DNA from: an uncultured Hyphomicrobiales bacterium
GTDB taxonomy: Bacteria; Pseudomonadota; Alphaproteobacteria; Rhizobiales; Beijerinckiaceae
Assembly (NCBI GenBank): GCA_903877935.1
Contig: CAIRGA010000062.1
Span: forward strand, 1 to 36,662
Reading direction: 5' to 3'
Length of the DNA stretch: 36,662 nt
Positions 18,340-35,069 of this stretch are shown here, one piece after another. The notes beneath the pieces are model-generated. The model saw nothing but the letters and a program-made list of their open reading frames with translations, had not been told where the DNA came from and made no database searches. Every line of letters begins with the position of its first letter. The first letter of the stretch is position 1. The position numbers were made by a program, and so were the translations under genes.

Positions 18340-20766
18340 ATGAAGACGAGTGCAAAAGTAGTGGTGATTGGCGGCGGCGTCGTCGGTTGTTCGGTTCTTT
18401 ATCATCTCACCAAAGCGGGCTGGACGGATGTTATGCTCATCGAGCGTGCCGAATTGACCGCAGGGTCCACTTGGCATGCTGCCGGCGGCTTCCACACGCT
18501 GAATGGAGATCCGAATGTCGCCAAGCTCCAACAATACACCGTCGAGCTCTATAAAGAGATCGAGGAACTATCGGGCGTCGCCTGCGGCCTGCATCTGACC
18601 GGCGGCGTCATGCTCGCTGGCACCGAAGACCGGATGGATTGGCTGAAAATGGCCCATGCCAAAGGCCGCTATCTCGGCATGCACACGGAAATCATCTCCG
18701 CCGAAGAAGCCAAGAAGCGCATGCCCCTGATCGACGAGAAGCATTTCGTCGGCGCGATGTATGATCCTTTGGAAGGCCATCTAGATCCCTACGGCACCAC
18801 GCATGCTTACGCTAAAAGCGCGAAGATCAACGGCGCTGAAATTGTCGTGCGCAACCGCGTGTTGGAACTCAACCAACGCGAAGATGGCACGTGGGATGTT
18901 GTCACCGAGCAAGGCACCGTGCACGCCGAACATGTCGTGAATGCCGGCGGCCTATGGGCGCGTGAAGTCGGCCGCATGGTAGGCCTGGAGCTGCCCATTC
19001 TCGCGATGGAACATATGTATCTGCTAACGGAAGATATTCCGGAAGTAGCCGAAGCCAATAAAACCACGGGCAAAGAAGTCATCACGGCACTCGATTTCGA
19101 AGGCGAAATCTATACCCGCCAAGAACGCGGCGGCATGTTGATGGGCACCTATGAAAAGGCTGCAAAACCTTGGTCCGAACAAGAAACACCATGGGACTTC
19201 GGGCAAAATTTGTTGGAGCCTGATCTTGATCGTATCGCGCCCGAACTTGAAGTAGGCTTCGAGCACTTCCCGTCTTACGGCAATACCGGCATCAAAAAAA
19301 TCATCAATGGCCCTTTCACCTTTGCGCCCGATGGTAATCCGCTGGTTGGCCCGATCCGTGGCTTGAAAAATTTCTGGGTCGCCTGCGGTGTTATGGCTGG
19401 CTTCTCGCAAGGTGGCGGCGTTGGTCTCGCACTTTCAAACTGGATCGTTAAAGGCGATCCGGGCTTCGACGTTTGGGGCATGGATGTCGCGCGTTATGGC
19501 GATTATGCAACGCTTGCCTATACCAATGCGAAAGTGCGTGAGAATTATTCGCGCCGTTTCCGCATTCGTTTCCCGAATGAAGAATTGCCCGCTGGTCGCC
19601 CGTTCCGCACCACGCCGATCTACGATCGCCTTCTCGCTGACAATGCCGTTATGGGCGAGAGCTATGGTTTAGAATATCCACTCTGGTTTGCGCCTAAGGG
19701 AATGGATGCTAAGGAGGTCTTCTCCTTCCGTCGCTCAACCGATTTTCCGCATGTCGGTAACGAAGTGAACCGCGTTCGCACCGCAGTCGGTGTGATGGAA
19801 ACATCGGGTTACGCAAAATACCGCGTCACAGGCGAAGGCGCAGAAGCATGGCTTTCCCATATGCTCGCCAATAAAATTCCGGCGACAGGCCGCATGGTGT
19901 TAACGCCCATGCTGAATGACAATGGCAAACTGATCGGTGATTTCACACTTGCAAAATTGGGCGCGGAAGAATTTTTGATCATCGGCTCAGGCCCAGCCGA
20001 GCAATATCATATGCGTTGGTTTGAAGCGCATCTGCCAGCATCAGGCGTGCAGATTGAAGCTTTGGGCCTCAATTTGGTTGGCCTTTCGATTGCGGGTCCA
20101 AATTCGCGTGACTTGCTCGCAAAACTAACGTCGAAAGATGTATCAAGTTCAGCATTCCCATTCATGGCAATTCGCAAAATGGATCTTGGTCCAATCCCCG
20201 CGATTGTTGGCCGCGTAACCTTTACCGGCGACTTGGGGTACGAAATTTGGGTTAAGCCTGAATATCAACGCGCCTTGCTCAATCTTGTCTTGCACCATGG
20301 CGAGGATCTGGGCATCGGCCATTTTGGCTTACGTGCCTTAAACTCCATGCGGCTAGAAAAGAATTTCGGCACATGGGCGCGGGAATACCGCCCGATCTAT
20401 GGCGCTCTTGAAGGGGGCTTGGGTCGCTTTGTCGATCTTAAAAAGAACGACTTTATCGGCCGCACCAAAGCAGCGGAAGAAAAGGAAAACGGCGGATCAC
20501 TGCGTCTCATTACTTTCAAGGTTGATGCAACGGACGCCGATTGCATGGGCGACGAACCAATCTGGCACGATGGCAAAGTGGTCGGCTGGATTACATCAGG
20601 CGGTTATGGCCATTGGGTCAAAGCCTCGATCGCGATGGGCTATGTACCAAAAGAGCTAGCAGACAAAACCGATGGCTTTGAGATCGAAGTGATTGGCGAA
20701 CGCCGCAAGGCCCATCCGATCCGCGAAACGCTCTTCGATCCAAAGGGCGAGAAAATGCGGGGGTGA
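18340..20766 (+). CDS. FAD-dependent oxidoreductase + GcvT/aminomethyltransferase fusion (dimethylglycine/sarcosine dehydrogenase-like)
   Basis: 808 aa; VVIGGGVVGCSVLYHLTKAGWTDVMLIERAELTAGSTWHAAGG (His in the position used for covalent flavin in DMGDH-type enzymes); C-terminal GcvT region (YRVTGEGAEAWLSHMLANKIP, GDLGYEIWV, ALNSMRLEKNFGTWAREY). Confidence 0.92.
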   Translation: MKTSAKVVVIGGGVVGCSVLYHLTKAGWTDVMLIERAELTAGSTWHAAGGFHTLNGDPNVAKLQQYTVELYKEIEELSGVACGLHLTGGVMLAGTEDRMDWLKMAHAKGRYLGMHTEIISAEEAKKRMPLIDEKHFVGAMYDPLEGHLDPYGTTHAYAKSAKINGAEIVVRNRVLELNQREDGTWDVVTEQGTVHAEHVVNAGGLWAREVGRMVGLELPILAMEHMYLLTEDIPEVAEANKTTGKEVITALDFEGEIYTRQERGGMLMGTYEKAAKPWSEQETPWDFGQNLLEPDLDRIAPELEVGFEHFPSYGNTGIKKIINGPFTFAPDGNPLVGPIRGLKNFWVACGVMAGFSQGGGVGLALSNWIVKGDPGFDVWGMDVARYGDYATLAYTNAKVRENYSRRFRIRFPNEELPAGRPFRTTPIYDRLLADNAVMGESYGLEYPLWFAPKGMDAKEVFSFRRSTDFPHVGNEVNRVRTAVGVMETSGYAKYRVTGEGAEAWLSHMLANKIPATGRMVLTPMLNDNGKLIGDFTLAKLGAEEFLIIGSGPAEQYHMRWFEAHLPASGVQIEALGLNLVGLSIAGPNSRDLLAKLTSKDVSSSAFPFMAIRKMDLGPIPAIVGRVTFTGDLGYEIWVKPEYQRALLNLVLHHGEDLGIGHFGLRALNSMRLEKNFGTWAREYRPIYGALEGGLGRFVDLKKNDFIGRTKAAEEKENGGSLRLITFKVDATDADCMGDEPIWHDGKVVGWITSGGYGHWVKASIAMGYVPKELADKTDGFEIEVIGERRKAHPIRETLFDPKGEKMRG

Positions 20767-20962: not shown

Positions 20963-22498
20963 TCAAAAATCCGTAGGCGCTCCACCTTCGGCCTTGCGCT
21001 TAGCAACAAAAGCCTCAAGCTCACCGTGAACCGCGTCATCGATCGGCGGCGGTGTATAGGCTGCAAGCTTTTCTTTATACAAACGATTGGCTTTATCATA
21101 AGCCGTCGGCGAGCCTGCTTCTTGCCAAGTCTCGTAATTCCGCCAATCGGAAATCATCGGCGCAAAGAACGCGTTGCGATATCGCGATTGCGTATGCTCG
21201 CAGCCAAAGAAATGCCCGCCAGGCCCCACTTCCTTCATCGCGTCAAAGCCTAGATCATCATCGGTAAAGGCAAGCGGCCGCATGAATTCGGTCAACATGC
21301 CCAAGAGATCCGCATCAATTACCATCTTCTCGAATGATGCATGCAAGCCGCCTTCCATCCAGCCGGCCGCATGCATAATAAGATTACCGCCACCCATAAT
21401 CGCGCCCCATAAAGAGAATACGCTTTCATAGGCTGCTTGCGCATCAATTGTATTCGCCGCGCAGGTATTGGATGACCGATACGGCACGCCATAACGCCGC
21501 GCGAGTTGGCCACCAATGATGGCCGACTTCATTTGCTCCGGCGTTCCAAAAGCCGGCGCACCTGATTTCATATCGACATTCGATGTAAACGCTCCATACA
21601 CAAAAGGCGCACCGGGATTAACGCTTTGCGTGAACACAAGTCCCGCAAGCGCTTCTGCGTTTTGTTCAACAATCGCACCGGCAATCGTTACAGGTGCCAT
21701 AGCACCCGCGAGCGTAAACGGCGTCAACACAATCGGCTGATTGCGCTTTGCCATTTGAATAATGCCTTCCATCATCGGCACATCAAGGCGAAGCGGTGAG
21801 TTGGAATTGATAATCGTAAACACGGACGGTTCACGATCAAGCGTCGCATCATCAATACCACGCGCAATCCGCACGAGTTCAAGCGCATCGATGTTACGTT
21901 CAGCACCAAGCGAATAAGCATGTACCGCTTTATCCGACAAAGTGAGCATATCGTAGAGCGCATCGAGATGACGCACAGAGGCATGAATATCGGCCGGCTC
22001 AACCGGATACCCACCCCATAAATGCACCGCATCCAAACTCTGCCCAAGGCGAATGAGGTTTTGATAATCAACACGATTGCCGGGCCTGCGTCCGCCATCA
22101 CGATCTGCGGCATTGGGTGCACTCGCTACCGAGCAAAACGCCACTGCATCGCCACCAATGGTTAGATTATTTTCAGGGTTACGCGCATGCAGCGTGAAGG
22201 TCTTTGGTGCTAATCCGATTTTGGACTCAACAAGGTCGCGCGGAAAACGCACGCGGCGCGTTTCTTCATCAACAATCGCGCCTTCTTTTTTCAATATCGC
22301 GCGCGCACCATCATGCAAAACATCAATGCCCAACTCTTCCAAAACACGCAGCGATTCCTGATGGATCCGTTCAATCTGCTCCGGTGTTGCAAGTTCTACG
22401 GCGGCAAACGGGCGACGTGGTTGTGGAGCCCTTGGCTGCTTTCCTGCGCGTTCCGCACGGCCAGCGCGGCGGCGGCCGCCTTCACTCATCAATTCCAT
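20963..22498 (-). CDS. Trimethylamine methyltransferase (MttB) superfamily protein, no pyrrolysine
   Basis: 511 aa uninterrupted ORF; ATPEQIERIHQESLRVLEELGIDVLHDGA, PFTLAGAMAPVTIAGAIVEQNAEALAGLVFTQSVNPGAPFVYG, ANTIDAQAAYES, HAAGWMEGGL typical of the MttB family. Confidence 0.93.
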   Translation of the reverse strand: MELMSEGGRRRAGRAERAGKQPRAPQPRRPFAAVELATPEQIERIHQESLRVLEELGIDVLHDGARAILKKEGAIVDEETRRVRFPRDLVESKIGLAPKTFTLHARNPENNLTIGGDAVAFCSVASAPNAADRDGGRRPGNRVDYQNLIRLGQSLDAVHLWGGYPVEPADIHASVRHLDALYDMLTLSDKAVHAYSLGAERNIDALELVRIARGIDDATLDREPSVFTIINSNSPLRLDVPMMEGIIQMAKRNQPIVLTPFTLAGAMAPVTIAGAIVEQNAEALAGLVFTQSVNPGAPFVYGAFTSNVDMKSGAPAFGTPEQMKSAIIGGQLARRYGVPYRSSNTCAANTIDAQAAYESVFSLWGAIMGGGNLIMHAAGWMEGGLHASFEKMVIDADLLGMLTEFMRPLAFTDDDLGFDAMKEVGPGGHFFGCEHTQSRYRNAFFAPMISDWRNYETWQEAGSPTAYDKANRLYKEKLAAYTPPPIDDAVHGELEAFVAKRKAEGGAPTDF

Positions 22499-22631
22499 CT
22501 TGCATTCCTCACAATCCGAAAGCGCCTATTTTCGATTTAAATCTATCCGCTCACCGCCCACCCGCAAAGCATGATCCAGTGCGGGTGACATATGTTTTCT
22601 AGATAGCGCCCACTTTTAAAGTTCGCCTGCC

Positions 22632-24272
22632 TTAGGCACGTCTGCGCCGACTTTCACGACGGCCCCGTGCAAGTGGCTCATTATCGCTGATCTCAACCCG
22701 GGTTGCTAACAGTGGGAACGCCTCGGTGCGGTGCGGAATACCCATCGCGCCAATTTGCTCGGCTTGGAAATCAGCGTCAAGAACAGTCTCGATGACACGC
22801 GTTTCACGCGCGAGCCTCGCCATTCCCTCGCGCGCAGATCGGCTCAACAGCGCCGCTTTAGCGCCTTGCAATGCCGCATTCTCAACGAAGGATATGGCGT
22901 TCGGATCGCAATCGGGAAACAATCCAATGATCGCAGCGTGCAATGGGTCAATGCTCACACCCGACCCACCCGTCAGAACCACACGGTCAATTCGATCGCC
23001 ACCATGACGCTTCAACAAAATACGTGCCGCTGCCTGAACCGCCGCTTTCGCCATTTGCAAGCTACGAACATCATGTTGCGTCAGAGCAATGCGCGGCTCA
23101 GCCTCACGCACCAGATAGGTCGAGGAGCGATACTCCTCTCTTATTCGGGGCGTCAGCGATGCCTTGACGGGATCAATCGTTCCATCGCGTCCCATCAGGC
23201 CTGCTAAACGTAATTCTGCCAACGCATCAATTAATCCAGCGCGGCAAAACCCGCCAATATCGAGCGCCTCAATGGAGGGCGTAAATTCTGGCTCGTCTGA
23301 CCAATAAGGTGACCCAATAACCTGATAGCGCGGCTCAAAGGTTTCAGGATCAATGCGAAGCGAATGAATTGCCCCCGGCACCGCATGTCGACCCGCTTCG
23401 AGCTGCACCCCTTCAAGCGCTGAGCCTGCAGGCGGCGCTGCTGCAAACATTCGGCCTTTCGAACCAAGTACAATTTCAGTCGTCGTGCCAATGTCGATGA
23501 GTAGCGTAACCTCATCACCCTGCCCCATCCCGCAATGATAGGCAGCGGCCAGCACGTCACTGCCAACATGCCCTCCGATCAAAGGCAAGGCATGCACCAT
23601 CGCGCCAGGTGCAAGCGGAAGTCCCAGCTCGTTGGCTGGCACATCAAACGCCTCAGCCAACACTGGCGTGTAAGGCGCAGTGCCGAGTTCGGACGGGTCA
23701 AGTCCAATCATCAGATGATGCATAACGGGATCAGCGACAAAGACCACATCGAGGATCTGCTCGCTTACAAGTCCCGCCTCGGCGGCAAGGGCTTCAACAG
23801 CCGCCTTAATCGAAGACCGGATCAACGACGTCATCTCGGCAAAGCCACCGGCCGTGGTCATCCCATACGCAACCCGACTGATCGGGTCGGAGCCAAAGCG
23901 GATGAGCGGATTTATGATGCTTTTTTGTGCAATTTGATCGCCATTGACCAGATTATTGAGCGAAACATGTATCGAACTGGCTCCAACATCTATCCCAAAC
24001 CCCGCTGGGACTATCTGATCGGGCCTCTGTACTACCACAACCCTATTGTTATTCACTCCAATTTGCACGGTCCAGTCCGACTTGCGCAAACGCTGTTGAA
24101 GTACTCGTAAAGTATCAAGGCCTATCTCGATCCCAAAAATCGAATATTGCTCCGCGAGTGCTAAAGCAAGACGACGGGCATCGCTAGAAGGGTCATGTAT
24201 ATCAGGCTCCGTTACTGTGACTGTACAGTAACGAATTACTTGATCAGATTGTGCGGCAAAATCCGCTTTCAA
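22632..24272 (-). CDS. ASKHA-domain (DUF4445) corrinoid-activation protein, RACo-like, lacking the N-terminal 2Fe-2S domain
   Basis: 546 aa; GFGIDVGASSIHVSL, INPLIRFGSDPISRVAYG, VTLLIDIGTTTEIVLG, VVLTGGSGVSIDP. Begins at the linker that normally follows the ferredoxin domain; no Cys cluster. Confidence 0.88.
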   Translation of the reverse strand: MKADFAAQSDQVIRYCTVTVTEPDIHDPSSDARRLALALAEQYSIFGIEIGLDTLRVLQQRLRKSDWTVQIGVNNNRVVVVQRPDQIVPAGFGIDVGASSIHVSLNNLVNGDQIAQKSIINPLIRFGSDPISRVAYGMTTAGGFAEMTSLIRSSIKAAVEALAAEAGLVSEQILDVVFVADPVMHHLMIGLDPSELGTAPYTPVLAEAFDVPANELGLPLAPGAMVHALPLIGGHVGSDVLAAAYHCGMGQGDEVTLLIDIGTTTEIVLGSKGRMFAAAPPAGSALEGVQLEAGRHAVPGAIHSLRIDPETFEPRYQVIGSPYWSDEPEFTPSIEALDIGGFCRAGLIDALAELRLAGLMGRDGTIDPVKASLTPRIREEYRSSTYLVREAEPRIALTQHDVRSLQMAKAAVQAAARILLKRHGGDRIDRVVLTGGSGVSIDPLHAAIIGLFPDCDPNAISFVENAALQGAKAALLSRSAREGMARLARETRVIETVLDADFQAEQIGAMGIPHRTEAFPLLATRVEISDNEPLARGRRESRRRRA

Positions 24273-25261
24273 TGACGCCTGCGTCCCGCCCGACGATCAC
24301 CACCCTCGTTCTTCGATGGCGGCGATTGGAGCGCTCCAAGCAATTGAATTACCTTGTCTTCTTCAGGCCTTGCACCCTGTGCGTGAGCCGTTACAGCCGC
24401 CCGAATGGCCGCCAGATGATTGAATCCCGTTCCGCAGCATCCGCCAACGATCCGTACACCCGAATCCACCGCAAGACAGGCGTAATCGGACATTAATTCC
24501 GGCGTACCTGAATAATGAATGTGCTCGCCTACAAAATGAGGAATTCCGGCATTTGCCTTCGCAATAATCGGAATTCCAGCCTCTTTTGCCGTCATTCCGA
24601 GAACGCTCATCACCAAATCGGACGCCCCAACGCCGCAATTCGCTCCAATCGCCAATGGCTTCGGGTCAAGTGTCTGAGCAAATTCAACCAGCCCCTCAGG
24701 CGTGATACCCATCATCGTCCGTCCCGCGGTGTCGAAACTGGCCGTGAAGGTATAGGGCAGGCCTACCTTGATTGCAGCATGGGCAGCGGCACGGATTTCT
24801 TCGATCGACGACATTGTCTCAATCCAGGCGACATCGGCTCCACCAGCCTTAAGTCCCTGCATTTGGTCAATAAATACCTCAACAGCCTCTTCTTCCGTCA
24901 AGGGTCCCAGCGGAGCAAACAGGTCACCCGTTGGCCCAACCGAACCAGCCACAACGACCGGCCTACCTGCTTTGGCAGCAACCGTCTTGGCTAGTCCTGC
25001 GGCAAGCTTATTGATCTCTTGTGCGCGATCTTGAAGGCCATGCAGCATCAAACGCCGCGAATTGCCGCCAAACGTGTTGGTTAGAATGATATCCGCGCCG
25101 GAATCGATAAATCCCTGATGCAGCGCCATTACCCGGTCAGGGTGTTCTAAATTCCAAACCTCAGGCGCTTCGCCCGCCACAAGGCCCATTTCGAACAGGT
25201 TTGTACCTGTTGCCCCATCAGCGATAAGGACTTTGCCCGATGACAGAAGAGAAGCCAGCAT
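24269..25261 (-). CDS. Betaine-homocysteine S-methyltransferase-like protein (Hcy-binding domain)
   Basis: 330 aa; LIADGATGTNLFEMGL, ILTNTFGGNSRRL, GANCGVG and RIVGGCCGTGFNH zinc-binding Cys motifs. Confidence 0.92.
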   Translation of the reverse strand: MLASLLSSGKVLIADGATGTNLFEMGLVAGEAPEVWNLEHPDRVMALHQGFIDSGADIILTNTFGGNSRRLMLHGLQDRAQEINKLAAGLAKTVAAKAGRPVVVAGSVGPTGDLFAPLGPLTEEEAVEVFIDQMQGLKAGGADVAWIETMSSIEEIRAAAHAAIKVGLPYTFTASFDTAGRTMMGITPEGLVEFAQTLDPKPLAIGANCGVGASDLVMSVLGMTAKEAGIPIIAKANAGIPHFVGEHIHYSGTPELMSDYACLAVDSGVRIVGGCCGTGFNHLAAIRAAVTAHAQGARPEEDKVIQLLGALQSPPSKNEGGDRRAGRRRH

Positions 25262-25457: not shown

Positions 25458-26129
25458 ATGGACGTCAAAGCGATGAAAACGATCGATCTTGTTTCAGATC
25501 AGGGCAATAGCCCGGATCTAGCTGATGCGGTTAGACGCGCAAGAATCGAGCGCGCAGAGAAGACAGGTATCGCTAACGATTTGATCGCGGCTGAATGTAG
25601 CCGTCTCGAAATTTTGCACAACCATCTAAAGCCGATCTTACAACAACTTCCACGCGACGCAGATTTGTTCAATCACGGACTAGTGGGCGGGGAACGGCCG
25701 AGACTCTATATCGATATGATTTCATTTATCGAAATGAGCCGCGATCGTCGTACTTATCGGTTTTTGATGGACACCCCCTCGGGTCGGCAATTGCTCGGCG
25801 AAAGTGACGATGCCGCCATCATGGCAAATGCCGTTACGAACTACCTTGGAAAACGCCTCGTCGAACGGGAAGCCGCTCTGTCCAATGCACTATCGTTTGA
25901 ACCCGTTGAGCGAAAAGATGAACAGTCTCCGCTTGAACTCGAACATGCGTCAACGGTTACATCCATTCCGGTTATCACCGAAGCGAGCGAACGAAGTGGC
26001 GTAAATTACTTTCTAATTTTCATCATCGGTTTGGCTGCGGGAATTGCGTCAGTTTATGTCGGAACCAATTGGGATGGCGTATTTTTACCCGAAATCGCCA
26101 AAATTTTTAGTTTATTTAGCGCTCGATGA
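25458..26129 (+). CDS. Hypothetical protein with a single C-terminal transmembrane helix
   Basis: 223 aa; charged N-terminal region, C-terminal YFLIFIIGLAAGIASVYVG hydrophobic helix; no recognised domain. Confidence 0.7.
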   Translation: MDVKAMKTIDLVSDQGNSPDLADAVRRARIERAEKTGIANDLIAAECSRLEILHNHLKPILQQLPRDADLFNHGLVGGERPRLYIDMISFIEMSRDRRTYRFLMDTPSGRQLLGESDDAAIMANAVTNYLGKRLVEREAALSNALSFEPVERKDEQSPLELEHASTVTSIPVITEASERSGVNYFLIFIIGLAAGIASVYVGTNWDGVFLPEIAKIFSLFSAR

Positions 26130-27054: not shown

Positions 27055-28032
27055 TCAAGCGCTCCCGATCAATATTCCCGCGATGAATACGAGTGCGCCA
27101 CCGGCAACAACCTGAAATGCCGCTTGTAGGAATGGCGTATCCATGAATTTTGCACGGATCCACGCAATAGCCCAAAGCTCGACAAGAACGATGAACGTCG
27201 CAATGGCTGTGGCCAGTAGAAACGCATTAGGAACACTATCCGGCACAAGATAGGGTAACGTGTGTCCAATGCCACCGATTGTCGTCATCAGGCCACATAT
27301 GGCGCCTCTAATCCATGGCGAACCACGGCCCGTCAATGAGCCATCATCGGACAAGGCTTCGGCAAAACCCATCGAAATGCCAGCACCAATGGACGACGCC
27401 ATACCAACAAGAAAGGTAGGCCAGTTGCCATGGGTAGCAAAAGCCGCTGCAAAAACGGGCGCCAGTGTCGAAACAGAGCCATCCATTAACCCCGCAAGAC
27501 CGGGTTGGACGTATTGAAGCACAAACATACGCTTCTTTGTTTCAGCTTCCTCATCGGCAGCAGCGCCCTTGCCTGTCGCTTCCATCAAATCGATGGTTTT
27601 CTTTTCGTGGGTGCGCTCAAGTTCGGCTAATTTGAGAAGAAGACCGCGGATATCGATATCCAACACGCGATCGGCCGATTTTTCATAAAAATTTGCGGCC
27701 TGCATTTCCATGATTTCAGCTTCTTGGCGCATTTTATCGACACCAAGATTTTTAATCATCCAGACGGGGCGACGCTTCAAAAATCCCTTAACATCTTCCC
27801 GCCGAATGGGAGAAAGATGCTCGCCAAACCGGGTTTTATACATTTCATAGAGCATGTCACGATGCCCACGCTCGTCTTGTGCCATCTCGTCAAAGACCGC
27901 GGCGGAATGAGGGTAGACGTCACGCACTTCGTCCGCAAAACTCTGATAAATCCTAGAATCTTCCTCTTCATTGGAGATCGCAAGCGTCAGAATATCGCGT
28001 TCGGTAAGTTCGGACAGAGCAAGCTGGGCCAT
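27055..28032 (-). CDS. mbfA: Membrane-bound ferritin-like protein / VIT1-CCC1 fusion (MbfA)
   Basis: 325 aa; N-terminal rubrerythrin-like EExxR and DExxH motifs (NEEEDSRIYQSF, DEMAQDERGHRDML), C-terminal VIT domain (GLAGLMDGSVSTLAPVFAAAF...GAGISMGFAEALSDDGSL). Confidence 0.9.
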   Translation of the reverse strand: MAQLALSELTERDILTLAISNEEEDSRIYQSFADEVRDVYPHSAAVFDEMAQDERGHRDMLYEMYKTRFGEHLSPIRREDVKGFLKRRPVWMIKNLGVDKMRQEAEIMEMQAANFYEKSADRVLDIDIRGLLLKLAELERTHEKKTIDLMEATGKGAAADEEAETKKRMFVLQYVQPGLAGLMDGSVSTLAPVFAAAFATHGNWPTFLVGMASSIGAGISMGFAEALSDDGSLTGRGSPWIRGAICGLMTTIGGIGHTLPYLVPDSVPNAFLLATAIATFIVLVELWAIAWIRAKFMDTPFLQAAFQVVAGGALVFIAGILIGSA

Positions 28033-28283: not shown

Positions 28284-29534
28284 ATGAAATATTCAGTTTT
28301 TAGCCTTATCCATCAGGCCATACGCGGCCAGAAAGATTGGACACCGGCTTGGCGGGATCCTGAGCCGAAGGATGAATATGACATCATACTGATCGGCGGC
28401 GGCGGCCACGGGCTCGCAACCGCATACTACCTGGCCAAAGAACATGGGCTAAAAAATATCGCAGTTTTAGAAAAAGGCTATATTGGGGGCGGGTCCGTTG
28501 GCAGAAATACCACCATTGTGCGGTCGAATTATCAAGAACCGGGCAATATTCCCTTTTACGAATTGTCGCTCAAACTCTGGGAAGGCCTTGAGCAAGACTT
28601 AAATTACAACGTGATGATGAGCCAGCGCGGCGTCTTGAACCTGTACCATTCAGATGGCCAACGCGACGAATATGCGCGTCGCGGCAATGCGATGGCGATG
28701 CATGGCGTCGACGGTGAATTATTAAACCGCGATCAAGTCCGCGAAATGGTACCATTCCTCGATTTTGAAAATGGCCGCTTTCCGATCCAAGGCGGACTTT
28801 TACAGCGCCGTGGTGGAACTGCCCGTCATGATGCCGTGGCTTGGGGATTTGCACGCGGCGCCGACTCCCGTGGCGTTGATATTCTTCAAAATACCGAAGC
28901 CAAACAAATCCGGGTCGAAAATGGCAAGGTTGTGGGGGTTGAAACAAACCGAGGGTTCATCAAAGCCAAAAAAATAGGCATTGTCGCGGCGGGAAATACC
29001 ACCCGTGTTGCGGAAACTGCAGGGCTGCGGCTACCCATCGAATCCTACGTCCTGCAAGCCTTCGTTAGCGAGGCGATTAAACCTTTAATTCCGTGCGTCA
29101 TTACTTTCGGAGCAGGCCATTTTTACATTAGCCAATCCGATAAAGGCGGCTTGGTGTTTGGTGCCTCACTCGACTATTACACCTCCTACGCCGCCCGCGG
29201 CAACCTCCCCGCCGTTGAAGACACGATCGAAGAAGCGATGGCAATTATGCCTGGAATTAGCAGGGTAAGGCTATTGCGCCATTGGGGCGGGATTATGGAT
29301 ATGTCGATGGATGGATCGCCAATTATCGATAAAACTACTATCGAGGGTTTATATTTGAACTGTGGCTGGTGTTACGGCGGGTTTAAAGCAACACCTGGAT
29401 CTGGCTTTTGTTTTGCGCATTTATTGGCAAAAGATGAACTTCATCCCGCCGCAAAAGCATTGCGGTTAAACCGGTTTGAAACAGGCCACGTCATCGATGA
29501 AGCAGGCACGGGCGCCCAGCCTAACCTTCATTAG
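28284..29534 (+). CDS. soxB: Sarcosine oxidase subunit beta
   Basis: 416 aa; MKYSVFSLIHQAIRGQKDWTPAWRDPEPKDEYDIILIGGGGHGLATAYYLAKEHG; RRGGTARHDAVAWG region. Confidence 0.96.
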   Translation: MKYSVFSLIHQAIRGQKDWTPAWRDPEPKDEYDIILIGGGGHGLATAYYLAKEHGLKNIAVLEKGYIGGGSVGRNTTIVRSNYQEPGNIPFYELSLKLWEGLEQDLNYNVMMSQRGVLNLYHSDGQRDEYARRGNAMAMHGVDGELLNRDQVREMVPFLDFENGRFPIQGGLLQRRGGTARHDAVAWGFARGADSRGVDILQNTEAKQIRVENGKVVGVETNRGFIKAKKIGIVAAGNTTRVAETAGLRLPIESYVLQAFVSEAIKPLIPCVITFGAGHFYISQSDKGGLVFGASLDYYTSYAARGNLPAVEDTIEEAMAIMPGISRVRLLRHWGGIMDMSMDGSPIIDKTTIEGLYLNCGWCYGGFKATPGSGFCFAHLLAKDELHPAAKALRLNRFETGHVIDEAGTGAQPNLH

Positions 29535-29556
29535 TATGCCTTTTTAGGATAAAATT

Positions 29557-29835
29557 ATGAGAATACCATGTCCTTTCTGCGGTGAACGAGATTTGCAAGA
29601 ATACAGTTTTCTAGGGGAAGCTGGATTAAAACGACCCGACCCGGAAGCGTCCGATGCACAGAAGCAATTTCATGACTACGTTCACATTAGAAAAAATACG
29701 GCCGGGACAACGAGTGAGCTTTGGCTCCATACCTATGGTTGCCGGTCGTGGATCGTAGTTCAACGTAATACTCTAACCCACGAAATATTTTCGTCTGAAT
29801 TTGCGTCGGATACTTTGAAAGAACTAACCAAATGA
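29557..29835 (+). CDS. soxD: Sarcosine oxidase subunit delta
   Basis: 92 aa; MRIPCPFCGERDLQEYSFLGEA...WLHTYGCRSWIVVQRNTLTHEI. Confidence 0.96.
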   Translation: MRIPCPFCGERDLQEYSFLGEAGLKRPDPEASDAQKQFHDYVHIRKNTAGTTSELWLHTYGCRSWIVVQRNTLTHEIFSSEFASDTLKELTK

Positions 29836-32753
29836 GCCAAATCAATCGGCTGGCGGAAGGTGGTCTGATTAACAGATCCAAACGGTTAAAATTTTCTTTT
29901 GACGGCAAAGAATTTGAGGGATTTGAAGGTGATACACTTGCATCAGCATTGATCGCTAATGGTGTGTCTCTTTTTGGTCGCTCGTTCAAATATCACCGAC
30001 CACGCGGCGTATTGACGGCCGGTTCCGAGGAGCCCAATGCGCTCGTTGAACTCCGAAGCGGCAACCGACTCGAACCAAATACACGGGCTACAACGATTGA
30101 GCTCTTTGATGGTTTGGCGGCGAACAGCCAAAACCGTTGGCCATCCCTAGATATCGACGTCTTGTCGATCAATTCCCTGATGGCACCACTTCTAACAGCG
30201 GGATTTTATTATAAAACATTCATGTGGCCCGCGTCGTTTTGGGAAAAAATATATGAACCTGCAATTCGCAGGGCCGCGGGATTAGGCAAGCCTCCTGAAG
30301 GCTTCGATCCGGACCATTATGAGAAATCTTTTGCCCATTGCGACGTACTTGTCATTGGCGCGGGTCCAGCAGGAATTTCGGCGGCGCTAGCTGCAGGTCG
30401 CGCAGGAGCCCAGGTTATACTGTGTGACGAAGGCCCACGGCTCGGTGGGCGGCTGTTATCAGATAAAGAGTATATCAATGACAAGCCAGCCCTCGATTGG
30501 GTTAGGGACAGCACTTTAGAGCTAGAAAATCTGGCCAATATTCGAATTTTGCGTCGTACGACAGTATTCGGAATTTATGATCATGGGGTCTATGGTGCAA
30601 TAGAACGCGTAAGCGATCATATGGCCATTCCCCGCGAATTTAGCCCTCGACAGCGCAGCTATCGTATCATAACGAAGCGCGCTATCCTGTGTAGCGGCGC
30701 CATAGAGCGGACAATGGTGTTTGGCGACAATGACCGCCCAGGAATCATGCTTGGATCGGCAGTTAGAACCTACGTTAACCAATATGCCGCCATACCCGGC
30801 AAACGCGGCGTCGTGGTTACAAGCTCGAATGATGGTCTTAGCACAGTTGAAACGTTGAAAAAAAATGGAGTACAGGTCGATGCCATTGTAGACACAAGAA
30901 ATGGCGATATGATCCAACATGCGCTCGGCGGAAAGCGGGTGCAAGCGGTTCAAATTATCGATAAAAATGGGAAAACACGGGAAGTTGAGTGCGATCTTGT
31001 TTCAATTTCAAATGGTTGGAACCCTTCCTTGCATCTGACCTGCCACCTGGGTAGCCGACCAGTCTGGGATGAAAACAAAAATGCGTTCCTTCCTGGAAAA
31101 CTCCCGTCAGGCCTAGCGGTTGCGGGTGCGGCGCAAGGTCGATTTAGCCTGCAAGAAGCCCTATATGATGGAATTCGTACTGGAAATGAAGCAGCAGAGC
31201 TAGCAGGATTTGATCCAAAACAGTTTGAAACTCCTTCTGCGGAACCCGAAATTTTCGATCATCGACCGATTTGGCGAATTAAGGCGAGCAAAGGAAAACG
31301 ATTCGTGGACTTTCAGCACGACGTAACCGACCTTGATATTGAATTAGCTAACAGAGAAGGCTTCAAGTCCGTAGAACATATGAAGCGTTACACAACGCTA
31401 GGCATGGCCACAGATCAAGGAAAAACCGCTAATGTCGCGGGGCTCGCAATTCTTGGTGAAGTCTCAAACAGGACGATTTCAGAAGTAGGAACTACTATAT
31501 TCCGTCCTCCATATACTCCTGTCACGCTAGGCGCCCTCGCAGGACATCACAAACATCATGAATTTCGGCCAACAAGGCTAACCCCATCTCATAAATGGGC
31601 TAGTGAGCGTGGTGCCGTTTTCGTTGAGACCGGGCTTTGGATGCGAGCACAATATTTTCCTAAATATTCGGGAGAAAACTGGCTCGATGCGATGATTAGA
31701 GAAGTAAAAGGCACACGCGAAGCTGCTGGAGTATGTGATGTCTCAACATTAGGAAAAATAGATATACAGGGCGAAGATGCGGCAGTTTTTCTTGATCGGA
31801 TATATACTGGCACCTTTTCGACGTTACCGATAGGACGCGTGCGCTACGGTCTAATGCTCCGCGAAGACGGCTTCGTCTTCGATGATGGCACGACAGCTCG
31901 TCTTGGCGAAAAGCATTTCCTCATGACAACGACGACGGCAGGTGCAGCTAAGGTAATGGCCCATCTCGAATTTTGTCATCAAGTATTATGGCCAGAATTA
32001 AATATCGCATTTACGTCAGTAACGGAACAATGGGCACAATATTCAATTGCTGGGCCGAATGCGCGAGCCGTTCTCGAAACGCTAATTGATCCCAATATAG
32101 ACATCTCAAACGACAGTTTTTCATATATGGCATGCAAATCTATAACGATTTGCGGAAATATCCCGGCCCGTCTATTTCGGATTTCGTTTTCTGGCGAGTT
32201 AGCCTATGAAATTGGCGTCCCAAATCGCTATGGAGACGCACTAATCCGCGCCCTTATGGACGTTGGTAAAAAATATGGCTTAATTCCTTATGGACTAGAA
32301 GCCCTAACTACGATGCGTATCGAAAAGGGACATGTCGCCGGCGGAGAACTGAATGGGCAAACAACTCCTCGCGATTTGGGTTTAAATAAGATGGTCTCTC
32401 AAAAGAAGGACTGTATTGGCAAGCATTTGTCGGAACGCCCCGCTTTGCTAGAGAAAAATAGGCCAATTTTAGTTGGACTAAAATCAATAAGTGGAAAATC
32501 AAACCTTTCTGCCGGGGCACATTTTCTTGATATTGGCTCTAACCCCTCACTCGATAATGATTTAGGCCATATGACATCAACGACATATTCACCAACATTG
32601 AATTGTTGGATAGGCCTAGGGCTACTAAAAAATGGTAGAGAACGTTTAGGTGGGACAATACGAGCCGTCGATTTTATGCGAAAAACGGATGTATTAGTTG
32701 AGATTTGCGATCCGATATTTGTGGATATAAATGGAGAGCGTTTACGTGGCTAA
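29832..32753 (+). CDS. soxA: Sarcosine oxidase subunit alpha
   Basis: 973 aa; FDGKEFEGFEGDTLASALIANGVSLFGRSFKYHRPRGV, DVLVIGAGPAGISAALAAGRAGAQVILCDE, C-terminal GcvT domain. Confidence 0.96.
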   Translation: MSQINRLAEGGLINRSKRLKFSFDGKEFEGFEGDTLASALIANGVSLFGRSFKYHRPRGVLTAGSEEPNALVELRSGNRLEPNTRATTIELFDGLAANSQNRWPSLDIDVLSINSLMAPLLTAGFYYKTFMWPASFWEKIYEPAIRRAAGLGKPPEGFDPDHYEKSFAHCDVLVIGAGPAGISAALAAGRAGAQVILCDEGPRLGGRLLSDKEYINDKPALDWVRDSTLELENLANIRILRRTTVFGIYDHGVYGAIERVSDHMAIPREFSPRQRSYRIITKRAILCSGAIERTMVFGDNDRPGIMLGSAVRTYVNQYAAIPGKRGVVVTSSNDGLSTVETLKKNGVQVDAIVDTRNGDMIQHALGGKRVQAVQIIDKNGKTREVECDLVSISNGWNPSLHLTCHLGSRPVWDENKNAFLPGKLPSGLAVAGAAQGRFSLQEALYDGIRTGNEAAELAGFDPKQFETPSAEPEIFDHRPIWRIKASKGKRFVDFQHDVTDLDIELANREGFKSVEHMKRYTTLGMATDQGKTANVAGLAILGEVSNRTISEVGTTIFRPPYTPVTLGALAGHHKHHEFRPTRLTPSHKWASERGAVFVETGLWMRAQYFPKYSGENWLDAMIREVKGTREAAGVCDVSTLGKIDIQGEDAAVFLDRIYTGTFSTLPIGRVRYGLMLREDGFVFDDGTTARLGEKHFLMTTTTAGAAKVMAHLEFCHQVLWPELNIAFTSVTEQWAQYSIAGPNARAVLETLIDPNIDISNDSFSYMACKSITICGNIPARLFRISFSGELAYEIGVPNRYGDALIRALMDVGKKYGLIPYGLEALTTMRIEKGHVAGGELNGQTTPRDLGLNKMVSQKKDCIGKHLSERPALLEKNRPILVGLKSISGKSNLSAGAHFLDIGSNPSLDNDLGHMTSTTYSPTLNCWIGLGLLKNGRERLGGTIRAVDFMRKTDVLVEICDPIFVDINGERLRG

Positions 32754-33354
32754 TTTTGTTTTAGACCCAACATCGGCGTTAGATCCATTTTTAGTAAACC
32801 GTCGTCATGATAAAGAAATTGATAATGCTGGCGTGACTATAAAAGAAGAACGGAAATTTTTGTTTTTAAGTTTGACTGCTTTTAAAAATAATTATGAAGA
32901 ATTATCAGATGTAATATTTTCCGAATATGGCATTACACTGCCCAAATACGGTAAAATAAGTAGGTCTAGTCAAATTAATTTGATTAATATTGCACCAGGT
33001 CAATGGTTAATTTACTCTTTCGACAATCCGATTTCGAATTTTTTATCAATTATCGAACCAATTGTTGGCAATTTAGGCGCAATCGTTGATTTGTCTGATG
33101 CAAGAGCAATTATTAAAATTTCTGGGCCAAAGGTTCGCGACACTTTAGCTAAAGGAGTTTCAATTGACTTGCACCCTCGTAAATTTACACCCGACCGCGC
33201 GGTTTCAACTTTTGCTGCCCAATTAGGCATGACTATATGGCAGTCCGAGGATGGGCTAACTTTTTATATTTCAGTGTTTCGTGCATTTGGTTACTCACTG
33301 CTCAATTGGTTGATTACATCAGCATCTGAATTTGGCTACAATATTGAAATTTAA
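32746..33354 (+). CDS. soxG: Sarcosine oxidase subunit gamma
   Basis: GTG start at 32746 (VANFVLDPTSALDPF) overlapping the soxA end by 8 nt; fourth gene of a soxBDAG operon; APGQWLIYS and VDLSDARAIIKISGPKVRDTLAKGVSIDLHP motifs. Confidence 0.85.
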   Translation: MANFVLDPTSALDPFLVNRRHDKEIDNAGVTIKEERKFLFLSLTAFKNNYEELSDVIFSEYGITLPKYGKISRSSQINLINIAPGQWLIYSFDNPISNFLSIIEPIVGNLGAIVDLSDARAIIKISGPKVRDTLAKGVSIDLHPRKFTPDRAVSTFAAQLGMTIWQSEDGLTFYISVFRAFGYSLLNWLITSASEFGYNIEI

Positions 33355-33480: not shown

Positions 33481-33500
33481 GGAATTGTGTGGATAATTCC
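33481..33500 (+). promoter_or_regulatory. Candidate lux-box-like dyad upstream of the luxR-family gene
   Basis: 20-bp GGAATTGTGTGGATAATTCC, outer 6-bp arms perfectly inverted, 75 nt upstream of the start. Confidence 0.35.
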
Positions 33501-33575
33501 CTTACGTCAGTTTCCTATTTTTATATCAATCGGACATTGTCGCGATTTTTCAGGAACCAGAATTGGAGGAAGGAA

Positions 33576-34331
33576 ATGTACATTAAACGCCTAAACACAA
33601 ATTTAGAAGAAGACGCACTTTTAACGATGATCGATCGTGTCGATACAATTAGAAAAAATAATGAAATTAACAGCGCCCTCAATGAAATGAAGGAAAAATA
33701 TTCTTTAAAGAATGCTGCCTATATTGGCTATAACATGGGGACATTAACTCAGGCAGAACCTTATGCTTCGGTAACTTATAGTGAGGAATGGATAAATCAA
33801 TATCGTGAAAAGTCTTATCTCGAGATCGATCCAGTATTACAGGCCGTCCAGAAATCAATACTTCCAATCGATTGGCAGTCTTTTGATATTAGCAATCAGA
33901 AAGTTCGTCGTTTTTTCAACGAGGCAAAAGACGCCGGGGTTGGCCGAAATGGAATTTCAATTCCAGTTAGAGGCCGAACTGGAGATTCCGCGATATTCAG
34001 TATAACAGCGAATGCAAAAGATAACGATTGGTTTCAATTTAAACGCCAGTTCATGAGAGATTTTCAAGTCCTCGCGGTGCACTTTCATCAATCGGTATTA
34101 ATATCGAATAATGTAATCCAACCCAAATTCAAACTATCCCATCGAGAAAATGAAGTTTTATATTGGACAGCGTGTGGAAAAACAGGAGAAGAGTCTGCAC
34201 TAATTCTTGGAATTTCTAAGCGAGGCGTAAGATTTCATATTTACAATATTATGCACAAGCTAAATTGTACAAATGTTACCCACGCAGTTGCAAAGGCAAT
34301 TTATTACAATCTGATAAAACCCCCAAGGTAA
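33576..34331 (+). CDS. LuxR family AHL-responsive transcriptional regulator
   Basis: ATG at 33576 preceded by GGAGGAAGG. AHL-binding motif spacing YSEEWINQYREKSYLEIDPVLQAVQKSILPIDW and GISIPVRG; C-terminal LSHRENEVLYWTACGKTGEESALILGISKRGVRFHIYNIMHKLN. Confidence 0.92.
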   Translation: MYIKRLNTNLEEDALLTMIDRVDTIRKNNEINSALNEMKEKYSLKNAAYIGYNMGTLTQAEPYASVTYSEEWINQYREKSYLEIDPVLQAVQKSILPIDWQSFDISNQKVRRFFNEAKDAGVGRNGISIPVRGRTGDSAIFSITANAKDNDWFQFKRQFMRDFQVLAVHFHQSVLISNNVIQPKFKLSHRENEVLYWTACGKTGEESALILGISKRGVRFHIYNIMHKLNCTNVTHAVAKAIYYNLIKPPR

Positions 34332-34427
34332 GCCGATTCGTTACTAATTAAACCCGTCGTTTGTGACGGATATCTTTAGGTAATTTATAAATTATTTTTT
34401 AATCCTGGTAATCAACAGGAGGTAAAA

Positions 34428-35069
34428 ATGATTTTCTTAGTCAATGGATCGGAAAGAGACCAATATTCGTATTATATGAATTCAATGCATAGAATTCGGG
34501 CGGCTGTTTTTCATGACCGCCTCCAATGGGAGGTCAAAGTCGAGAGAGGACAAGAGAAAGATAGGTTCGACGAGCTTAACCCATTATATTTACTGTCACT
34601 TGATGAAGAATCTGGCAGAATAAGAGGGTCAGCAAGGTTATTGCCGACAACTGGACCGAACATGCTTCGGGACGTATTCCCTTCGTTGCTGCCCGAGGAT
34701 GAATTTGTTGAAAGTGCTTCGATTTGGGAAAGCTCGCGCTTTTCCATGGAACCCGGAGCAGAAACGCCCTTACCTGGCCAACTTATTAGTCAAGTAACGG
34801 CAGAATTAATTGCTGGAATTTGTGAAGTCGGGTTAATCGCCGGTTTGACTGACGTTGTTTCAGTATTTGACGCGCGAATGGTGCGCATTATGCGGGCCTC
34901 CGGTAGCCCCGCAACTATTATCGGTAAACCTCAGCGAATTGGTGCATTCATGACTTATGCTGGTCTTTTTGAAGTTAGCGATGCGGCCTTAGCCAATATT
35001 CGTCGTGCTACAGGTCTAGAGGGTTCCGTACTCGAACCACAAAGCGTGTCACGTTGCTTGGCAGCCTGA
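34428..35069 (+). CDS. Acyl-homoserine-lactone synthase (LuxI family)
   Basis: 213 aa; RIRAAVFHDRLQWEV, DRFDELNPLYLL, GSARLLPTTGPNMLRDVFP, ESSRF conserved LuxI positions; strong RBS AGGAGG. Confidence 0.93.
   Translation: MIFLVNGSERDQYSYYMNSMHRIRAAVFHDRLQWEVKVERGQEKDRFDELNPLYLLSLDEESGRIRGSARLLPTTGPNMLRDVFPSLLPEDEFVESASIWESSRFSMEPGAETPLPGQLISQVTAELIAGICEVGLIAGLTDVVSVFDARMVRIMRASGSPATIIGKPQRIGAFMTYAGLFEVSDAALANIRRATGLEGSVLEPQSVSRCLAA

Follow-up and report, generated by a model that had tools for sequence, protein, structure and literature searches.

A RamA/RACo-type paralogue without a 2Fe-2S domain, overlapping mtgE of a split methionine synthase in uncultured Alphaproteobacteria

A split methionine synthase has been described in Phaeobacter (PMC5764234), and its Ruegeria counterpart doubles as the glycine betaine demethylase MtgBCDE (PMC12478193, PNAS 2025). 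The S. meliloti-type 'BHMT' has been argued to lack the betaine-binding residues of human BHMT (PMC12478193). In the split system, one corrinoid protein serves both methionine synthesis and betaine demethylation, and how the partners of this protein, MtgC, take turns is left unexplained in both studies (PMC5764234, PMC12478193). The host system includes RamA-like proteins that combine DUF4445 with a ferredoxin domain, such as PGA1_c15200 of Phaeobacter inhibens and SPO2041 of Ruegeria pomeroyi.

The stretch of DNA analysed here (the window, 36,662 nucleotides) comes from the genome of an uncultured alphaproteobacterium in which MtgB, MtgC, MtgD, MtgE, DUF1638, a MetF-like protein and RamA are all present. 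Compared with the described MtgBCDE system (PMC12478193), the modules are dispersed over two loci, and there is an extra RamA paralogue without an Fe-S domain, referred to below as the short RamA. PGA1_c15200 and SPO2041 share its host system and, by domain content, its family, but they are complete reactivases, whereas the short RamA is an extra copy coupled to mtgE in a genome that also has a complete one. The linker, middle and ASKHA domains are common to the short RamA and RACo (PDB 3zyy, 4c1n); unlike RACo, the short RamA has no N-terminal 2Fe-2S domain, and several of its universal ATP-site residues are replaced.

The short RamA gene and its neighbourhood

On the minus strand, the genes are ordered mtgE (25261-24269), short RamA (24272-22632) and a gene for an MttB-family protein (22498-20963). 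The features of the locus are as follows:

24269..25261 (-): MtgE, homocysteine S-methyltransferase module of the split methionine synthase, annotated as betaine--homocysteine S-methyltransferase (PF02574, NCBIfam PRK07534, Phaeobacter/Ruegeria split enzyme)
24269..24272 (-): mtgE stop and short RamA start overlapping as TTGA, which couples the two genes (sequence; junction in 7 species and at contig edges of three further assemblies, G001, G003 and G005)
22632..24272 (-): short RamA/RACo paralogue, 546 aa, TTG start (Pfam, phmmer, AlphaFold, Foldseek)
20963..22498 (-): MtgB-like methyltransferase of the MttB superfamily, downstream of the short RamA (PF06253, synteny)
18340..20766 (+): dimethylglycine/sarcosine dehydrogenase-like enzyme (DAO and GCV_T; domain content), context
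28284..33354 (+): sarcosine oxidase-like soxB, soxD, soxA and soxG, context (labelled by homology to the annotated Terrarubrum plasmid)

The short RamA is a real gene. In the junction sequence CGTCATTGAAAG, its TTG start and the TGA stop of mtgE overlap by 4 nt as TTGA, and the next in-frame ATG, GTG or TTG lies ~60 codons further on. An earlier note on this DNA had described a four-nucleotide overlap and translational coupling to 'BHMT', which holds; it had given the overlap as ATGA, but the sequence reads A-TTGA and the start codon is TTG.

The protein matches the Pfam families RACo_linker (residues 10-83), Raco_middle (91-250) and RACo_C_ter (254-520), with no Pfam match to Fer2 (2Fe-2S). 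A phmmer search against the PDB returned RACo (3zyy/4c1n, E ~6e-66 to 7e-66), aligned end to end over linker, middle and ASKHA domains. The AlphaFold model (pLDDT 89.7, low at 533-546) gave the same RACo structures as top Foldseek matches (TM 0.79 by query). The proposal of a RACo/RamA-type protein without a ferredoxin domain is borne out. The iron-sulfur domain in cis is absent from the short ORF in seven species, and the CGGRG-type cluster motif, kept in all full-length alphaproteobacterial homologues examined, is absent from the short clade. The first residues had been assigned to the linker; eleven residues (MKADFAAQSDQ) stand before the quoted 'VIRYC...'. By its sequence, we regard the short RamA as a genus-specific, derived paralogue of the corrinoid reactivase RamA/RACo without the 2Fe-2S domain, that is, a variant within a known reactivase family whose function has probably shifted. 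A DUF4445/ASKHA annotation is by itself no proof of reactivase activity.

As the earlier note had reported, no corrinoid protein gene was recognised among the genes neighbouring the short RamA. A search of the window found no riboswitch or other Rfam RNA at the gathering threshold. The intergenic stretch before mttB (22499-22631) holds a block, ATCTAGAAAACATATGTCA...GATCATGCTTTG, a possible regulatory element that several of the species in the genus conserve. Elsewhere in the window are a fast-evolving 223-aa protein with no Pfam match (25458-26129), which is conserved within the genus and divergent from mtgE; a membrane-bound ferritin-like protein that joins a rubrerythrin domain to a VIT1-like membrane domain (27055-28032) and whose place next to the locus is conserved; and an acyl-homoserine-lactone quorum-sensing pair (33489-35066), in which a LuxR-type regulator with an autoinducer-binding domain precedes an autoinducer synthase.

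The ATP site and the B12 system elsewhere in the genome

A set of 92 positions is conserved across full-length alphaproteobacterial RamA and has the identical residue in Carboxydothermus RACo. All seven short forms keep 52 of them, and 15 are lost in all seven, among them the universal N264, P284, F286, G344 and F437. The losses affect the N of DxGTN, the P and F of GPAFEG, the G of GICGSG and the F of the GxFG motif; in single short-form species, D95 (phosphate-1 Asp) is replaced by H and D260 (phosphate-2 Asp) by N. With ATP-motif windows picked from general ASKHA knowledge rather than from a nucleotide-bound RACo structure, and with positions invariant in alphaproteobacterial RamA only as the reference, the short forms retain 19-23 of 34 motif positions, whereas RACos at a far greater distance retain 27-29. 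The distant RACos keep 0.79-0.85 of motif positions and 0.43-0.58 of other positions, whereas in the short forms the two classes are kept alike (0.56-0.68 and 0.59-0.66). The pattern argues for a relaxed ATPase constraint on the short RamA, although ATP binding may persist, as many residues of the ASKHA skeleton remain. The motifs, previously described as intact, are therefore partly eroded, at residues that even distant RACos keep.

The remainder of the system is on contig C141, which encodes MttB, a DMGDH-like enzyme, the corrinoid protein MtgC (B12-binding and B12-binding_2), DUF1638, a protein with a virulence-factor domain, a MetF C-terminal-type protein, MetF, a methyl-THF methyltransferase (MtgD) and a complete RamA with Fer2. 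The genome search suggested in the earlier note thus yields both the B12-binding corrinoid protein and the methyltransferase, and neither a corrinoid protein nor a RamA ferredoxin domain is missing from the genome. The short RamA is a second copy, since the full-length RamA with Fer2 is on C141, and the lack of a corrinoid gene beside it is expected, because MtgC is shared and encoded elsewhere. Inside the genus, close homologues show the same short form with a normal corrinoid partner elsewhere, a pattern that had been named as telling against the original proposal.

Separate homocysteine, pterin and cobalamin modules are present together with DUF1638 and a complete RamA, as in the MtgBCDE host system, which has neither MetH nor MetE. 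No MetE, no PF02965 reactivation domain and no MetH-type B12-binding_2 domain were found in the genus, where the last search returned only the corrinoid protein and weak matches; the split synthase is therefore the likely methionine route. A second, more distant S-methyl_trans protein is encoded on contig C129.

One alternative is a split activator: the short RamA would have remained an ATP-dependent reactivase and would draw its electrons in trans, either from a free ferredoxin or from the full RamA through its 2Fe-2S domain. The full RACo fold of the model and the many ASKHA residues kept are consistent with this, and the genome offers both a full RamA and a stand-alone 2Fe-2S ferredoxin. 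However, that ferredoxin, the only one in the genome (contig C89), is of a common type and unlinked to the short RamA, and no dedicated ferredoxin partner linked to it was found in the genome. The separate electron donor that the earlier note had envisaged is thus not supported. In addition, the motif losses exceed those of distant working RACos, and every other full-length homologue examined carries the 2Fe-2S domain in cis. We consider a split activator unlikely.

Distribution, selection and origin

Seven species of a single GTDB genus (G000, G002, G004, G007-G010) have the short ORF, the TTGA junction and the gene order intact, so that the suggested synteny comparison places the short ORF between mtgE and mttB in each. 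The genus records are MAGs labelled Beijerinckiaceae, Hyphomicrobiales/Rhizobiales, Alphaproteobacteria or Alsobacter, and the carriers are uncultured, mostly aquatic bacteria. In G001, the 3' part of the short RamA is on one contig with MttB and the mtgE junction on another, and this partial copy has an in-frame TAA; in G003 and G005, the contigs end just past the start of the gene, with the same junction. The assembly of G006 has no short RamA. These breaks of three MAG assemblies, at the beginning of the gene or within it (G001, G003, G005; L065, L066, L064, L049), may reflect strain-level variation.

Outside the genus, the other full-span homologues in ~300 genomes of the family are long forms, and no further short orthologue of the clade was seen among them. 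A survey of 389 alphaproteobacterial genomes gave 81 linker matches in 79 genomes, and the window copy was the only short frame unexplained by a contig edge; one remote RACo-like frame (G104) has 579 aa.

The dN/dS of the short RamA is 0.10-0.22, compared with 0.012-0.055 for the full RamA of the same genomes (in round figures, ~0.1 and ~0.016), with MtgE and MttB in between or near the full RamA. Its dN is ~10x that of the full RamA. Since the frames are open in seven species although the synonymous distances between them are near or beyond saturation, the substitution pattern indicates that the short RamA is functional and under purifying selection, with loose constraint.

Those rates could also be read as the mark of a relaxed remnant: a truncated copy of RamA that has only residual function left, is gradually disappearing and persists mainly by its position between mtgE and mttB. 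The raised dN, the in-frame TAA in G001 and the absence from G006 fit such a history. Against it, dN/dS is well below 1 and the ORFs have stayed intact over the distances just described; the G001 copy is a MAG fragment at a contig edge, and the G006 assembly also lacks the tested neighbours, so that an assembly gap is possible there. A remnant is, in our judgement, unlikely too, slightly more so than a split activator.

In the maximum-likelihood tree, the short clade forms one branch (100/100) that groups with the RamA of G117 and G030, apart from the full RamA of the genus. Holding the short clade and the genus's full RamA together was rejected by the AU test (p 0.029), a moderate result involving a long branch. 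A recent in-genus duplicate of the full RamA is accordingly disfavoured, with the same caution as to long branches. Contig C4 of G030 matches the Terrarubrum flagellatum plasmid NZ_CP091854.1, which carries mtgE-mttB, a sox gene set similar to that of the window nearby, mtgC-DUF1638 and a RamA whose place in the tree is close to the short clade. Unlike the short RamA, the Terrarubrum RamA has Fer2 and intact motifs and is not located between mtgE and mttB. As mtgE and mttB are directly adjacent on the plasmid and RamA is ~16 kb away, behind mtgC-DUF1638, insertion of the 3' part of a RamA between mtgE and mttB appears at least as likely as a single deletion. The earlier suggestion that one deletion removed a corrinoid gene together with the ferredoxin domain is therefore not favoured.

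An assembly or sequencing deletion at 24269-24272 can be ruled out as the origin of the short form with near certainty because, although these are MAG data and contig ends fall at the gene in G001, G003 and G005, the same junction occurs in independently assembled genomes with different accessions, and the short RamA groups apart from the genus's full RamA in the tree and AU test.

Arginine-rich tails and a candidate role

Three proteins encoded at the locus have Arg-rich termini:

22635..22673 (-): C-terminal tail of the short RamA (GRRESRRRRA), in the region of low pLDDT at 533-546
24272..24304 (-): C-terminal tail of MtgE (GGDRRAGRRRH), from terminus comparison
22439..22483 (-): N-terminal segment of MtgB (EGGRRRAGRAERAGK), from terminus comparison

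Across Alphaproteobacteria, such segments (typically GGRRRRRG) are C-terminal on MtgE, MtgD, RamA and the short RamA, and N-terminal on MtgB. A run of eight residues with at least four Arg occurs in 159 of 168 C-termini of the core proteins, compared with 0 of 152 from neighbouring families (Fisher p 2.5e-81, which overstates independence, the sequences being related), and in 94% of 35 MtgB N-termini. The tail of the short RamA is kept in all seven species, with a short extension in G002. The N-terminus of MtgC is acidic, with a net charge of ~-13 over the first 40 residues and a pI of 4.5. In the PDB homologues 9yce (glycine betaine methyltransferase), 2yck (MeTr), 3zyy (RACo) and 1y80 (corrinoid protein), the alignment extends almost to the end of the chain, so that the extensions appear to be missing from these; 4yyc has an Arg-containing start. 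A search of the main text of the MtgBCDE paper (PMC12478193) gave no mention of the tails, and no published Fe-S-less RamA or Arg-rich tails in the split system were found in the open-access literature.

With the domain loss, motif erosion, purifying selection, coupling and conserved tail evident in the sequences, we infer that the ATPase and redox activities of the short RamA have been lost and that it binds MtgC in an adaptor role. Without a 2Fe-2S domain and with a relaxed ATP site, the protein would be unable to reduce Co(II) itself. Its RACo body and Arg-rich tail would dock on MtgC, and the docked protein, co-translated with MtgE, could tune which partner (MtgE, MtgB or the full RamA) meets MtgC. 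We give this non-redox adaptor or holdase slightly less than an even chance; the many ASKHA residues still kept, and the fast evolution of the protein, which also fits slow decay, count against it.

A broader and more doubtful proposal is that the Arg tails on every visiting module and the acidic N-terminus of MtgC form a docking code on MtgC. The Fe-S-less RamA would then be a pseudo-reactivase that has kept tail and body, has lost both chemistries and regulates access to MtgC. The short RamA and the common Arg tails offer a direct and cheap experimental handle on how the partners of MtgC alternate.

On the Terrarubrum plasmid (L201:11756-14038, NZ_CP091854.1), the complete RamA carries the small 'virulence factor' domain PF13769 as an N-terminal fusion. 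In other cases this domain has its own gene in the mtgC-DUF1638 operon, and the fusion suggests that the PF13769 protein works with the reactivase.
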